NCBI GenBank assembly: GCA_008802785.1
Contig: VUYT01000007.1
Coordinates: forward strand, 248,001-312,000
Length of the DNA stretch: 64,000 bases
Direction: 5' to 3'
From: Symmetrospora coprosmae
Taxonomy: Eukaryota; Basidiomycota; Cystobasidiomycetes; Symmetrosporaceae
The notes under the pieces were generated by a model, which made no database searches, was not told the DNA's origin, and saw only the letters and a list, made by a program, of their open reading frames with translations. Every line of letters starts with the position of its first letter. Within the stretch, counting starts at the first letter, position 1. This document shows, piece by piece, positions 8,921 to 16,994 of this stretch. Made by a program: the position numbers and the translations under genes.

Positions 8921-10544
8921 TCAGTAATAACGGTTCCTGCCAAATCTGTTGCCTCCAAAACGTCCACCGCCGCCACCGTACCCTCCGTACCTGGGTCGCG
9001 GCACAAGCATCCCCGCTGTCGATCCTGGGCTGTACTGCTCCATTGCGGCATAGTACGCTGCCTCTGGATTCAGGCTGCGACAGAGATGGGGACAATTGCA
9101 CGGATTAGCGGCAGAACGAGCGCAGGTTGTAAAGAGCCATAGACTGACCCCTGTCGCACGCCGTGGTAGTACGAGCTGGTGTCGCGTTCAGGCGAGATGC
9201 CCAGCTGCTGTCCGAGATTGAGGTACCCTTCGTCCTTCCTGACTGCGCCTGCTCCTCCACCAGCAGCGACCGCCATTGGTCCCGACTTGGGCCAGTCCGC
9301 TCGGCAGTAGATGCAGGTCACGGGCTGTCCTTGCGCGACCTTTGCACGCGCGGCTGTCTGGAAGCACTCGCGGTGGACGACATTGCCGCAGGACAGCTCA
9401 CAATAGACAAAGTTGTTCGACTGGTCGCGCTCCTCGTAGATGTCCTCGAAGCACACAGGGCAGGTGTCGTCCTCCTTGACTGGGCGTCGCTTACCAGCAA
9501 GCGTAGCAGGCAGGGCTGAAGTGGAAGTCGATGCAGAGCCACCCGGCTGAGAGGCGGCAAGAAAAGCCTGCGTCACAAGGTCGTTTTGCACCGCCTCGTT
9601 GGCAGCAGCCGGTGCATTACCAAAGACTTCGTCAAGCTCGGATGTGAGAAGCGCTTTCTGGTAGACTGGAGTAGGAACGTTAGAGTGTTGTGTCAGGCGA
9701 GTCCGTACCCTCGGTCTTGTTGGTGACGGGACTAACTGTTCGGCGAGTGCGCAGGGACGCAGAGGACCTTGAGCATGCAAAAGAGGATGTGCTTGCATGT
9801 GTTGCCCTTCGAGGCGTCCGGGCACGAGCAGGAAGGGACGTGTCCGATTCGGACGGTGTAGACGCTGTGGACAGGCCGAGTGCTCAGTCAATCGCTTTCG
9901 AAGACTACACGATCCCCTACCCACTTTCCAGTACTGCCAAGCACGCCGAACTGCTCCAGAAGCGCGTTGGTGGGGTCGGGCTTCTCGCGGTTGATGAGGT
10001 AGAAGCGCTGCGCTTTGACTCGCTCCAGACGCTCGAGAATGTTCTTCGGGCACGAATTGCGAGCGCGGCCCTGACGCTTCTCTCCAGGGATACCGGGCAC
10101 CTGTACCCAGGCCGGATTCGAGTAGGTGCGCGCCTCGACGGGAAGAGCGGCCGCCACCGGCTCCGCCTTCGCGCGCTTTCGGGAGGAAGCGGCAGAAGAT
10201 GACGGTCCTGGCGCACACTCTCCGGCGATCTGCTGCGCTCCATGAATGAGACCCGCAGCGTACGCCTCGTCGTCCTCGTCTGCGTAGTCCAGCTCTGCGT
10301 ACTCGCGCTTCGCGGAGGTCGCCTTGCGCTTCAGGGGCGAGCCAATTGGATCAAACTTCGCGGTGTATGGTTTGTACTCGTCGGGCTGAAAGAGTGCTGC
10401 GTGATCTTCCTCGTTCTTAACCCTGGTCGCTCGGGTCCGGCTTCCAGGTGCGCCTCCGCGCGCGACCCGCTCGACCTCAACGTATGGCAATCCGTCGACC
10501 CCGAGGTCCAGCTCGCGCTTGACGGTCGCTTTGCGCTTTGTCAT
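8921..10544 (-). CDS. SWIM- and RING-finger protein, putative E3 ubiquitin ligase
   Basis: Exons 10544-9925, 9864-9737, 9665-9149 and 9074-8921 give 472 residues. The N-terminal ~200 residues are basic and charged (nuclear-type Lys/Arg stretches such as SRKRAKAE). The SWIM zinc motif CxCx8CxH (CSCPDASKGNTCKH) is split from the upstream part by the first intron. A RING domain starts with CPVCFEDIYEE and ends with CIYCRADW, with the His/Cys pair in VVHRECFQ. The C-terminal exon encodes a Gly/Arg/Tyr-rich tail (RYGGYGGGGGRFGG). A SWIM followed by RING is the architecture of ZSWIM2/MEX-like ubiquitin ligases, so protein ubiquitylation is likely; the target is unknown. The start at 10544 was chosen because MTKRKATVKREL looks like a natural N-terminus, but the same frame is open to an ATG at 10700. 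Confidence 0.85.
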
Positions 10545-10839
10545 TGTGCGTCGTGGTCGTATGGTACCACGGTGCGTGCTGTGTCGCGCTTGCGAACGGC
10601 GCAGAAGGCCGTCGTCGGGAGGAAAGGGGGTCGTCTCCGCCGCGATGTCAGGAACTGTAGTGGCGATGGACCTGGAGTGCACCTCTGTCAAGGAGTACAA
10701 TACGTAGCTGTGGGTGTCAAGGCTGATGCCATTATGAGACGAAGTGAAGCCTCGCCAGTCTGAGTCGTCTTCTATACCCTACTTCCTTCACAACGTCTAG
10801 CTAGATCTTTTGCCATACACCGTTGCAGAAAAGCCGCAT

Positions 10840-13378
10840 TCACAAAGCCTTGACACCTTCGCTCGTCTCCCTCGAATTTGTACCCGTTCTGTACTCTGAC
10901 GAGCTGCCCAGCTTGTACCACAGGAAGAGTGTGATGCCAACGGACGCGATGAGCATGGCGAATAGGGTCCAGTTGGCCATCAAGTACCGTGGGCCGTCCG
11001 AGGACGGGAAAAGATCTAGGCAAAAATCAAAGACATCAGTCTAGATCTTGTGCAATGATTCAACTCATGTCTGACTTACATGGCGTCGTGAAGCCAGAGC
11101 AATTGGCGATTGCAATAACTCCGCCTGTGGCGATAGCTGTCGAAGTCGCTCCAGTGACAGTTGCCGTTCGATACTGAGTAACGGAGAAAGAATCAACCAC
11201 TCTGAAGCACTATGCTAGCAGTCTGTCACTGTTGCGGCCGTGACTCACTGCAAGGAAAGGAATGACCGCGGCATTCGTGCAGGAGATCAGGAAGACGCCG
11301 ACGAGTCTGCCGATCCAATTCTGCACGGCCGCAAGGAGGAGGTAGCCTATGCTAACAAATATGAGGCCTGCAATGATATGCTATGAGAAGGTAACTTCCT
11401 CAGCAGTTGCAGTGTGCCGATGGCGGAGCCCTAAAAAACTGGACCTACACGGGGGCGCTCGCGATGATAGTCAGACGACCATGCATTTACGATGATGATG
11501 ATGAGTCCAAAGATTTGAGGCGGCACAGTCATGAGCTGCGATCTGTAGCCTGTAAAGCCAAGGTTCCGAACGACTTGAGAGATGGGAAATGGCCAGGTCA
11601 GCCGGCGACGAAGCCTGCAAGGCCGCAAGAGGAGCGTGCAACGGACTAGTCGGTAAAAAGAATCCTGTTGCGTTGAGAGAGTGCGTCATCTGTTGTATTA
11701 GATTCCAGTGGGTGTCAGCTCGTGTCTGGCGAAGGCGTCCGCGATTGCCGGGGACGAGCGACCAAGAAGAGACGAACAGCGAGGTATTGTGCAGCGAAGG
11801 CCCAGAACTGCCATGCGAAGACAGTTGCCTTAAGATCGTTCCAGTCGAAGTGCTTATCGGTGCCCTTGGGTGCGTACGGGCCCATGCGGTGCGACGCGAA
11901 CTCCCGCTCTTCTTCGGTCAGAAATTTTGCGGTCTCAGGGTAATCTAGAGAAGGTGTGAACGCTTGTCAGTATACAAATCACCTCGCGTGAAGGTTTCAT
12001 GACCGCACCGGGCAGGCCGAACCAAACGTAGACGCCGACCAGGACAGCGGGGATGCCTTCGAGGATGAATAGCGTGCGTCGAGGAAGGAATCAAGCAGGA
12101 GTCAGCATTAAGAGTCTGACTACCGATCATAGCTCTGATCATACTCATCATTGCCATCCAGAGAGACCGGCGATGCCGCTACGTAGTATGGCAAGCCAAT
12201 GTCAGTCGATACCCTCGTCACTGGTAAAGATTGCCCGGGACGCACTGCATGAACGACACTCCCGTCGCAATAAGACCACCGAATGCTCCACTAATCTGTA
12301 GTCGGCGTCACTTCAAAATCCGCCTTGTATATTCTTTGCAGCACCGCGACTCACCGCCACAGAGGCAGAAAAGATGGCCATGCGCTTGCCGCGCTCAGAA
12401 GGTGTGTACCAGAAGCAGAGGTATCCGATGATCCCGGGAAAGAAGCCTATACGATTGGGCGTCAGCCGAATCATTCACGGTTTCTGCCAAGGCGATACGC
12501 ACCAGCTTCCATGATCCCCAAGAAAACACGGCATACCATGAGGCCAGCGAAGGAGGAGCAGGCGGCCGTGCAGATCGTTACGATCCCCCAGCTGACCATG
12601 ATGCGAGAAATCCACCTTGGAGGGGTGAAGTACTTCATCAAGAGATTCGACGGCTACGGGAAGTAGACATCAGTACTGCGTCGCGACCCTGGCGTTTGGA
12701 ATGAACCTGACGAATTCGAAGAGGACACTGTCAAAATACCGAGGTCAGGTCAGAAGCCGTTCTTCGCTTGCGATGCGGATAGAACAGCTTACTAGGGCAC
12801 GAAGAAGATGGCAACGACAAGGCTGTGAGAGGTATGACACATCAGCCTGGGATACGGGCAGGGTCGAGTGCAATGTACCTCACTTGTACCGATCGCCCGT
12901 CAAGTCTAGGTCACGTATGATATTGTCCGGCTCGTCCAAGTTGCTGTGAATCAGTGTGTCAATGGTAAGCTTTCCTTTCCTGGGATGTGGGAGGGACTCA
13001 CAGAACTCGGGCGTTTCCCCTGCGAGTGGCAAAGATTCACTCAGCTCGAGCTGGGCAGAAGCAGAGCAGGTCGGAGCATACAGATTCGTCCGGTCCAAGT
13101 GATTCAGAACGTAGGCGAGGCAGATGAGGGGCATGATGCGCAGATCCTGCTTCCTCAGGATGCTCCGTCTGCGAAAACGTACGCGAGATGAGTCGCGTCT
13201 CAGATTCCGCGGGAACGCGTGGCCCCGCAGGAAAGGGAGGATCCTCAGAAGGGCATGCTCACTCCATCGCTTTCGCAGCGTCGCTTTCGTCGTGGTAGCC
13301 ACCAGCTGGTGCTGCCATTGCGGAAATGTCCTCATCGCCTTTCTTGCTGTCCCTGTCGTCAAAGTCAGAGCCGGCCAT
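10840..13378 (-). CDS. MFS permease of the anion:cation symporter (allantoate/nicotinate-type) family
   Basis: Seventeen small exons give 478 residues with every phase consistent: 13378-13263, 13168-13082, 13019-13002, 12943-12884, 12822-12793, 12727-12712, 12653-12503, 12446-12355, 12295-12246, 12178-12149, 12073-12009, 11944-11778, 11689-11647, 11573-11451, 11367-11249, 11173-11080, 11015-10840. Family signatures visible after splicing are LDRTNLGNARVL in TM1, YVLFEFPSNLLMKYF in TM2, RVFLGIMEAGFFPG around TM4 and GWQWLFILEGIP at TM6. These are hallmarks of the DAL5/TNA1 group, plasma-membrane proton symporters for organic anions such as allantoate, nicotinate or related carboxylates; the exact substrate is not readable. 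Two exons are only 16 and 18 nt. The intron 12148-12074 has AT-AC ends, required to keep the GWQWLFILEG block in frame. N-terminus 38 residues, acidic and cytosolic. Confidence 0.9.
12074..12148 (-). other. AT-AC spliceosomal intron
   Basis: Read on the minus strand, the intron begins ATGAGTATG and ends CGACGCAC. Removing it joins TGG CAA TG to G CTA TTC, giving the conserved TM6 block GWQWLFILEG. No GT-AG pair keeps this block: the nearest GT places two stop codons in the exon. The 75-nt length and an internal CTGAC branch-like site resemble the neighbouring U2-type introns, so this is best read as a U2-type AT-AC intron, not the U12 class (no ATATCC donor). Confidence 0.75.
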
Positions 13379-13823: not shown

Positions 13824-15672
13824 CTACATATCATCGAGCTCGTCTCCGATGTCAAAGCCAAATGAGAAAGTTTCGGCCGGCGGGGCGACTTCCGACCCAT
13901 CTTCCGAGTCCCGCACCTGTGTGAGGGTTGTCCAGAGCGTCCCTTCCTTCTTGCCATCGTTTCCAGGCCTGTCCTTGTCCTGCTCCATCTCCAAGCGCGC
14001 CAGGCCTTTGAGGCCCTCCATGAGTATGTCGGGGTACTCGCGCTTGAGCGCCTCGCAAAAACGGGCATAGACAAGGCCGCCGCCCGTCTCGTCCTCCTCC
14101 TCGCCCTGGTACTCCCCCTCCTGCTGCTCGACACTGCTCGGCGCAACGCCGTCCGCACAAGCCAGCTTAAAGCCGGATACCTGGTCCGCGCGGTGCTTGA
14201 GAAAGTGCAGGACCGCAGCGAGGTTGGATGGCGACACGAAGTTCTGCGTGACGGCCAGAGACGACTCGAGGTTTACGACGAGGTGCCACCAGCCCTGTGG
14301 GACGTAGAACGTCTCGCCCGTCTCGCACACGCCTTCGAGCATCTTGCCACGCAAGCTCGGGTCTTTGCCCCGAGAACCATAAGTCGCTTTCGCCGTGCTG
14401 TAATAGTTCATGAGCCACTCTATATAGTGCCAGAGAAGTCATCAGCGCCAATCTTCGGGGTGCAGCAGGAAGCGAGACGCACCAGCAAGCGACAAAGGGG
14501 CTTCAACCTCAGACTGGTCCTCGCTAACCATGATACCCGGAGGCACAATGTCCTTGGGGAAGAGAATCCACATCTTCCTGCCTGTGACTACGGCGTTCCA
14601 AGCTGAGGTTGCATTCGGGTCGCAATGGAAGGTGGAGCCTGACCGTTCGGGTCCGGCAATCTGCGGAGGGCTCTTGTCAGCCCTGGTTTCTCTGAAGGGA
14701 GACTGTCTTGCCACTCACCAGCCAGCGGTAGTTTGGCCTCTCATCACCAAGCACCTTGAACAGATCATCGCGGAAAAGGGCAGGGACCTGGAAGTCCGCG
14801 CCGAGTCCGTGCCCTTCTTCTCCATCCCGCCCGGCTGTCTTCTCGACGAAATCGGCATCGAAGATGTAGAGGGGAGACTCGTCATAGGGACAGGCGTCGT
14901 GATAGGCTGCATAGTCCCGCATGCGCGTTAGGACGGCTTCGGCCCGGAACTCTGTCTCCGGGAACCGCTCCGCTATCGACGGCAGGGTCCAACGCTGGTT
15001 GTGTGATGCGAGAGCCGCCCAATCGTCCATCGCATGCGTGAGGATCATGGGCATGTCGCCCAGATCCTGTGCATGAAGCGTGCGCGCATCTTTCCGAGCG
15101 ATGTTATTGGCGAATGAGGAGGATGAGGCGATAGCGTTGGCGTCGTACTTGGCGGCTAAGTACGGCAGATAGAGAACGTCGGAGTAGACGTCTCGGATGC
15201 GTATGCTGTCCGTGGGTATGCTTGACGCATCGTCGCCATCTGCCGGCTTCGGCGTAGGCTTCAGGAACTGGTGGACGTAGGTGCTCCTCCAGGACCCTTG
15301 CCATGCTCCCAGCTTTCCCCGGGCCCGCTTGATGTACTCTAGCTTCCAGTTCCCCTCTGTGCGCGTGAAAGCGTAGAAGGCAGGCGAGACGGCCTGAATG
15401 CGGACCAGGTCGCGCGGCGGGAGCTCGCTGAAGATGGTCGAGAGGAGCTCGTCGGACAGGACCGCCAGGCGGCCTAGACCTGGATGGCGGGCGTTGCGAG
15501 GGACATCCTTGAAGAGCAGATTGCCGAGTGGCTCGCATGGAGGAGGTGGTGGGACTGCCTTGGCAGCAACTGCGTCACGGGCAGACAGCCGGACCCGCTT
15601 AGCCACAGGAGAGGCCACAGCATCCGCCTCGTCGCGCTTGGAGCTGGCGACTCCGTTGCCGTATCCGTGCAT
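13824..15672 (-). CDS. F-box / JmjC-domain oxygenase, JMJD6-like
   Basis: Exons 15672-14719, 14660-14483 and 14419-13824 encode 575 residues. An F-box-like segment (LSDELLSTIFSELPPRDLVR) sits at residues ~105-155. The cupin/JmjC core follows: iron ligands His and Asp are in FHCDPNATSAW, the third ligand His in PQGWWHLVVN, and a 2-oxoglutarate-binding Lys candidate in GRKMWILFPKD. This Fe(II)/2-oxoglutarate architecture is that of the JMJD6/JMJD4-like group of lysyl hydroxylases and possible arginine demethylases, with the F-box suggesting recruitment to an SCF ubiquitin ligase. The C-terminal tail is acidic (GEYQGEEEDETGGG) and ends in a short acidic peptide. It is transcribed away from the mitochondrial ribosomal protein gene with only 170 bp between start codons, so they likely share a bidirectional promoter. 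Confidence 0.88.
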
Positions 15673-15842
15673 CTCTGTGCGAGCTTCTCCCTTGCTGGGA
15701 CTGCGTACTGTGCGCAGGACTCGTCGTCGAGTCCGTTCTATGGTGGAAGCTGAAGCCGTTCTCTCGAAAAAGTTAGAGACGGGTGGCAAGACGGGGCAGA
15801 GCTTCGTCCAGCTCCAAGCAGACAACGACACCGACCAACAGT

Positions 15843-16994
15843 ATGAACGTCGCAGCGAGCACATCCCGCGCGGCCATCGCTGCTGTAGCGTCAATGGCGT
15901 CCACGTCCTCCGCCTGTGCCGTGTCTGCTGCAGCCGCCGCCAGGTGCAGCCCTCGATGCCAGCAGCGGCTCCTCTCTACATCGACAGCGGCCTTCGCAAA
16001 GACCAAGAAGGACAAGGGAGCTGCTCCTCCTCCAGGACCAAAGAATACACCGCCGGGGACGAATGCAAAGCCCCCTGCAGCACACCGCCCGAAGCGCTAT
16101 GCGACGCGGTACGGCGTCCCGCCCTTGCACCCTACCCTCCTCGCGACAGGCGCCGACAAGCTGAGCCGCGCGGCGACGGAGAAGGCACAGTCGCCGGACT
16201 ACAAGAAGGTGTGGACGCTAGAGGACCAGATCGTGGGCGGGACAACGTCAAAGGCGCGGGAGAAGGCCCGCCTCGAGCTCGAGCAGCTCCGCAAGGACCA
16301 GCCGAAGCGACACCCGCTCTGGGCCTTCTTTGCGGAAAAGACGCAGAAGGAGATGGACGAGGAGGCGAAAGCAGGCGGACCGTCATCCTCAGCTGGACAG
16401 CACTCGCTGGCAGTGTCGTTGCAGAAGCCCGATGCTCTCGCTGGTAACAGCGGTGAGCTTGCATCCCTTAGACCGATGCAGTGAGCCGAGAGAACCATCG
16501 CTGAAAGTATCACGTACTCAGGTCGGTCCTGGCACGCTGAGGAGCTCCGGAGAAAGTCGTTTGACGACCTACACACGCTGTGGTACGTTCTCGTCGTCGA
16601 GCGCAACCGCCTTGCAACGCAGAAGGAAGAGGCCCGGCGACAAGGCGTCGACTGGAGGTCGTACACGTATCTTCAGGAGCAGATGCACAGGGTGCGTCCA
16701 CTGCTTACAGCGAAAAGCGACGGGCTCTGTTTCTGATTGCTGCTGTACTCCCACATGCAGACCCGCAAGTCCATGGCGCGCATCAAGTATGTCCTGAACG
16801 AGCGAAGAAGGGCCATTGTCGAGGCGCAAAAGGACATCAAGATCGCTCGCGCAGCAGAAGAGAAGCAAAGCGATGCAGAGACCCAAGACGGCCCGGCGAA
16901 GAGCGAGATCCAGCACTCGTCCGAGCCCGCTTCGGCCGCGCCACTCATCCAGCCGGAAGCGCCAGCAGCGAGCGAAGCTCGGCCTACTCTATGA
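15843..16994 (+). CDS. MRPL4: Mitochondrial large-subunit ribosomal protein uL29m (MRPL47/yeast MRPL4)
   Basis: Three exons (15843-16452, 16522-16691, 16761-16994) encode 337 residues. The N-terminus is rich in Ala, Ser and Arg without acidic residues ([20 protein letters not shown]), a typical mitochondrial targeting sequence, followed by a Pro/Lys-rich linker. The family block [18 protein letters not shown] followed by [12 protein letters not shown] starts exactly at exon 2 and is diagnostic for MRP-L47/uL29m, which sits at the polypeptide exit tunnel of the mitoribosome. The C-terminal ~50 residues are low-complexity Glu/Ala/Pro sequence without family support. Longer than the yeast protein mainly because of these linkers. 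Confidence 0.92.

Follow-up and report, generated by a model that had tools for sequence, protein, structure and literature searches.

Symmetrospora coprosmae has a genome of 20.05 Mb in 77 contigs. The window, which is the whole 64-kb stretch of this genome that was analysed, has a G+C content of 60.5% and carries an intact gene for an MFS permease (DAL5/ACS-like) on the minus strand. Upstream of the permease gene lies a neighbour (14677-15894 plus 13824-14411, minus strand) that encodes an F-box-like protein (PF12937, PF00646), with a C-terminal part that is JmjC/cupin-like (PF02373, just under the cut-off). This neighbour is possibly one gene in several exons. In the downstream neighbour (9070-10700, minus strand), PF13639 (RING-like) matches weakly, under the cut-off, and a Cys-His-rich stretch resembles, by eye, a SWIM zinc finger. 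The features of the permease gene that concern its tenth intron are as follows (a slash marks a splice point here and below).

10840..13378, minus strand: MFS permease gene (DAL5/ACS-like), intact, 17 exons, 483 aa (exon join and translation, PF07690)
12149..12178, minus strand: exon 10, ending ...GGA TGG CAA TG (sequence)
12074..12148, minus strand: intron 10, AT-AC, 75 nt (exon join, junction listing and spliced alignments)
12143..12148, minus strand: 5' splice site ATGAGT, U2-like except for A at +1 (comparison with sibling introns)
12139..12144, minus strand: GTATGA, a GT donor decoy 4 nt inside intron 10 (sequence)
12101..12105, minus strand: candidate branch site CTGAC, with the A at 12102 (motif comparison with sibling introns)
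12074..12077, minus strand: 3' splice site GCAC (sequence; ACN at the same place in homologue P0076)
12009..12073, minus strand: exon 11, starting G CTA TTC ATC CTC GAA GGC, which reads (W)LFILEG (sequence)

The predicted permease matches PF07690 (E=4.5e-38), and the presence of the MFS_1 domain together with full-length family homologues places it in the allantoate/DAL5-type (ACS) group of the MFS. Its best 20 homologues are 62-71% identical to it, and named homologues come from Kwoniella, Rhodotorula, Sporobolomyces, Dioszegia, Pseudohyphozyma, Cryptococcus, Exophiala and Rhodosporidiobolus. These names fit a host among the basidiomycetes, and a tree of 27 rows gave no closer placement. Eight NCBIfam matches all fall under their cut-offs, and a PDB sequence search returned two weak MFS matches. 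The term "allantoate-type" used in the initial annotation is sound as a family-level name but not as a statement of substrate, since the names of the homologues vary and include phthalate, tartrate and pantothenate transporters.

Joining and translating the exons shows that all 16 introns of the gene fit one 483-aa frame. Fifteen of these introns are GT-AG and intron 10 is the exception. It reads ATGAGTATGATC...CGACGCAC on the minus strand from 12148 to 12074, and with its flanking exons the arrangement is CAATG/ATGAGT...GACGCAC/GCTATTC. The coordinates, the ATGAGT start, the CGCAC end and the length of 75 nt proved exact when the sequence was read again. It had also been said that all sixteen other splice junctions agree with this intron; the agreement is real in that the single frame fits them all, but the number is wrong as there are 15 other introns. 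A 301-nt query spanning intron 10 finds one place in the genome.

The choice of junction was examined by listing every in-frame, stop-free intron of at least 40 nt within 12178..12009, with exon 9 and the end of exon 11 fixed, and by scoring the resulting peptides against a profile of 120 homologues. Among the 748 listed splices the AT-AC junction scores highest (115.2), and the runner-up (102.4) replaces Trp217. The position of Trp217 is occupied by Trp in 115 of the 120 aligned homologues, and by Tyr in 3, while the remaining 2 (P0076 among them) have a gap there. The listing contains a single stop-free GT-AG option (12167..12057, score -14.4), which deletes the conserved GLSGWQWLFILE block, and a single stop-free GC-AG option (12176..12057, score -40.8), which likewise deletes the conserved block. 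A spliced aligner that permits GT-AG, GC-AG and AT-AC introns picked 12148..12074 with 3/3 proteins, and the same interval was picked with 2/2 proteins when any termini were allowed at equal cost. The equal-cost run slid sibling introns by 1-4 nt in 5/14 and 5/15 cases and added one spurious intron, so this run supports the junction but, taken alone, leaves the exact base unsettled. When only GT-AG and GC-AG introns were permitted, even with the end of exon 9 left free, the score fell by 80-88 and the block was broken with 4/4 proteins. The GT-AG alternatives were rejected because they lose the family block in both the listing and the spliced alignments, which bears out the earlier claim that AT-AC splicing keeps GWQWLFILEG in frame while GT-AG choices bring in a stop codon or delete this block. 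As far as the letters and the family profile can tell, AT-AC splicing is the sole reading found that preserves this block.

The interior signals of intron 10 resemble those of its siblings. The donor ATGAGT agrees with GTGAGT at 5/6 bases, and its +3 to +6 bases (GAGT) tie with three sibling introns for the top score in the gene. The A of CTGAC lies 28 nt upstream of the intron end and no AG occurs from there to the acceptor. A CTRAY motif is found in 10/15 sibling introns at 7-25 nt, making the spacing in intron 10 slightly long; the other 5/15 siblings have no CTRAY motif and the branch-site assignment is thus soft. By sequence and frame, intron 10 begins with AT, ends with AC and has a U2-like donor and a U2-like candidate branch site, the set of features of a U2-type AT-AC intron.

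The AT-AC termini are also what would be seen in a U12-type intron excised by the minor spliceosome. The U12 5' splice site consensus is RTATCCTTT and the U12 branch consensus is TTCCTTAAC, located about 8-20 nt upstream of the intron end. Intron 10 contains TTCCTCGAC, which shares 7/9 letters with the branch consensus, but this motif is just 5 nt from the intron end and is replaced by TTYTTYTGYCAR in P0076; the donor has 3/9 letters of its consensus. Neither the donor nor the branch site is thus of U12 type, and the comparison with siblings and with the U12 consensus agrees with the view that the donor and CTGAC are U2-like. Genome-wide there is one match to an exact pattern of U12 donor plus branch site, against 0 for the reversed control. 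The genome was searched with Rfam for the snRNA genes, and U6 and two U2 genes were found whereas U11, U12, U4atac and U6atac gave no match (0/4 families); these searches lacked a working control, as the control genomes matched none of the four families and gave no match for U2 or U6 either. The two U2 snRNA genes lie on opposite strands about 2.6 kb apart (G000:C75:425984-426152, plus strand, and 428760-428946, minus strand). One fungus that bears on the minor spliceosome is Cutaneotrichosporon oleaginosum, which we take to be a basidiomycete. Minor snRNA genes have been detected in this fungus, according to a passage of PMC7072748, whereas PMC10639083, a survey of >3000 genomes, reports that Basidiomycota showed no minor introns that were convincing. 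A U12-type intron was rejected on account of the 3/9 donor and a branch-like motif that lies too close to the intron end and is not conserved in the relative, and we consider it extremely unlikely.

A close relative provides a second view of the acceptor. P0076 is a 278-aa protein from a JGI contig of 1734 nt and is 91% identical to the permease; in a tree of 27 rows (our protein and 26 of the 275 collected homologues) the two proteins join at 100/100. From LFILEG onward the two proteins are of equal length and share 242/266 residues, which means that introns 11-16 are absent from P0076. Upstream of this part, P0076 starts MLTPEQFFCQCT and then continues with LFILEG. The last 35 nt of our intron 10 begin ATGCTGACTCC. 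This encodes MLTP and matches P0076 in both frame and distance, indicating that P0076 reads through a retained intron 10. The distance from ATGCTGAC to the exon is the same 35 nt in P0076, and the reading is ...Cys-Thr(ACN)/Leu-Phe. At least 9/36 nt near the acceptor differ between P0076 and our intron 10, but the final codon remains ACN, i.e. AC/N. An AG end at that place would read as Arg or Ser.

The nature of P0076 is clarified by P0274 (ENA, longest contig 6166 nt), in which two exon stretches (28 and 44 residues) are letter-identical to P0076. Between these stretches P0274 has a 72-nt read-through insert at intron 14 that begins Val-Ser and ends Gln. Since P0274 keeps this insert and P0076 lacks it, P0274 is genomic and P0076 a spliced product; the introns missing from the protein are apparently those removed from a transcript of a close relative. 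The upstream half of that transcript was sought as well, and none of the 74 matches listed is >80% identical to the permease. Searching with the central part of the protein (92 matches listed) returned P0076 and its genomic counterpart P0274 and no spliced junction of that species, and the protein homologue searches yielded no junction-spanning read or protein from S. coprosmae or from the species of P0076.

Each end of intron 10 is a single base away from GTGAGT and GCAG, as would be expected if the true ends were GT and AG and had been altered by sequencing or assembly error. This would need two independent errors placed exactly at both ends, and the ACN (not AGN) in P0076 argues against an error on the acceptor side, which is the side that P0076 covers. 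A double error was rejected on these two grounds and is very unlikely. The comparison among related species thus adds an ACN reading within a retained intron, and it suggests that the unusual AC end already existed before the two species diverged. A Gln codon in P0076 (CAG or CAA) ends 5 nt upstream of the AC end. Because this codon may be CAG, an AG acceptor is possible in the relative, which may use it in place of the AC end.

Retention of intron 10 in P0076 could also mean that the intron is not removed, with the gene becoming a pseudogene through a damaged splice site or yielding only broken GT-AG products. Retention places a TGA immediately after Gln216, and the GT decoy 4 nt inside the intron, if used, leaves TGA TGA in frame. 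In opposition to this, the rest of the reading frame is undamaged and its other 15 introns are GT-AG, and the downstream part is 91% identical and gapless between two species that share the AC reading. This reading has little probability.

Intron 10 is very probably a U2-type AT-AC intron, as the initial annotation proposed, and the proposal is supported by the junction fit, the spliced alignments, the U2-like signals and the ACN of P0076. We infer both that splicing takes place at the AT-AC junction and that the major spliceosome carries it out. The major spliceosome would recognise an otherwise normal donor (TG/ATGAGT) and the CTGAC branch site, and the usual contact between the first G and the last G of the intron would be swapped for one between a compatible A and C. 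Removal would join TG to G and so create Trp217 of GWQWLFILEG. Excision of intron 10 may be slower than that of its neighbours, because P0076, which bears on introns 10-16 and leaves introns 1-9 outside it, kept intron 10 alone. Selection might have kept the AT-AC intron as a slow, regulable intron that throttles permease production, although we regard this as unlikely; if so, unspliced transcripts would end right after Gln216, a possibility hinted at by the retention seen in the sister species.

Other members of the family appear to have introns close to this position. Read-through open reading frames suggest, as a text pattern, a GT-AG intron at TGG CT/N TTC in 8/275 homologues (P0192, P0195, P0203, P0206, P0211, P0237, P0242 and P0243) and a GT-AG intron at CTN/TTC (CTN/TTY) in 3/275 (P0095, P0182 and P0208), with P0187, P0210 and P0217 similar by eye. 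The deposited P0095 (Microbotryum intermedium BQ2448_3609) carries extra in-frame residues that separate WQWL from FILEG, apparently an intron that the annotation left unspliced. These deduced introns lie within a few bases of ours in the same family block of the permease, but they are deduced to be GT-AG and lie 3 or 4 nt downstream of ours, which is at TG/G. Intron 10 is one codon upstream of the CT/N site and in the same phase, and it may have slid or been newly gained relative to the introns of these relatives.

The background rate was approached through paralogues. Among 116 introns in 14 paralogous loci, 108 are GT-AG, 8 are GC-AG (unsafe, as they come from low-identity alignments) and 0 are AT-AC, as scored by an aligner that charged more for AT-AC than for GT-AG. 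The census used 14/30 loci, the other 16 being the window gene itself or overlapping the 14, and 11 further paralogue matches without a locus lie outside it. The sample is too small for 0/116 to say much about the frequency of AT-AC introns in the genome.

Intron 10 represents a well-defined case in which both ends have changed as a pair, from G and G to A and C. No minor snRNA gene was found in the genome, and the acceptor is apparently common to two species. Such an intron puts the rule of compatible first and last bases to a natural test, and it is a caution for gene prediction that is restricted to GT-AG. A paper of 1997 by Wu and Krainer reportedly deals, by its title, with U2-type AT-AC introns. 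Such introns are referred to as "AT-AC type II" in a passage of PMC7072748. Among the papers listed in the literature searches, there was no report of intron 10 itself. Of the other sources consulted in part, PMC8329584 treats U12-type introns, and PMC3091305 was set aside since "AT-AC" there forms part of polyketide domain strings.

The AT-AC type II introns and intron 10 have in common the AT and AC ends, a U2-like donor interior and the absence of U12 signals; they differ in that removal by the major spliceosome is, for intron 10, a deduction. In yeast introns, the relevant part of PMC8283771 states that the terminal G and G are exchangeable for A and C only. AT-AC introns make up 0.03% in the SnowyOwl fungal predictions, as given in an excerpt of PMC4084796. 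Ganoderma lingzhi is described, in the section consulted, as having 13 AT-AC introns (0.014%), one of which is confirmed by Sanger sequencing (PMC11590231). AT-AC introns are thus already known in a basidiomycete and are rare in both cases, but those of G. lingzhi are in other genes, and intron 10 is known from sequence, homology and an AC-reading relative. Since both the mechanism and the occurrence are known, intron 10 is one more, well-supported example.
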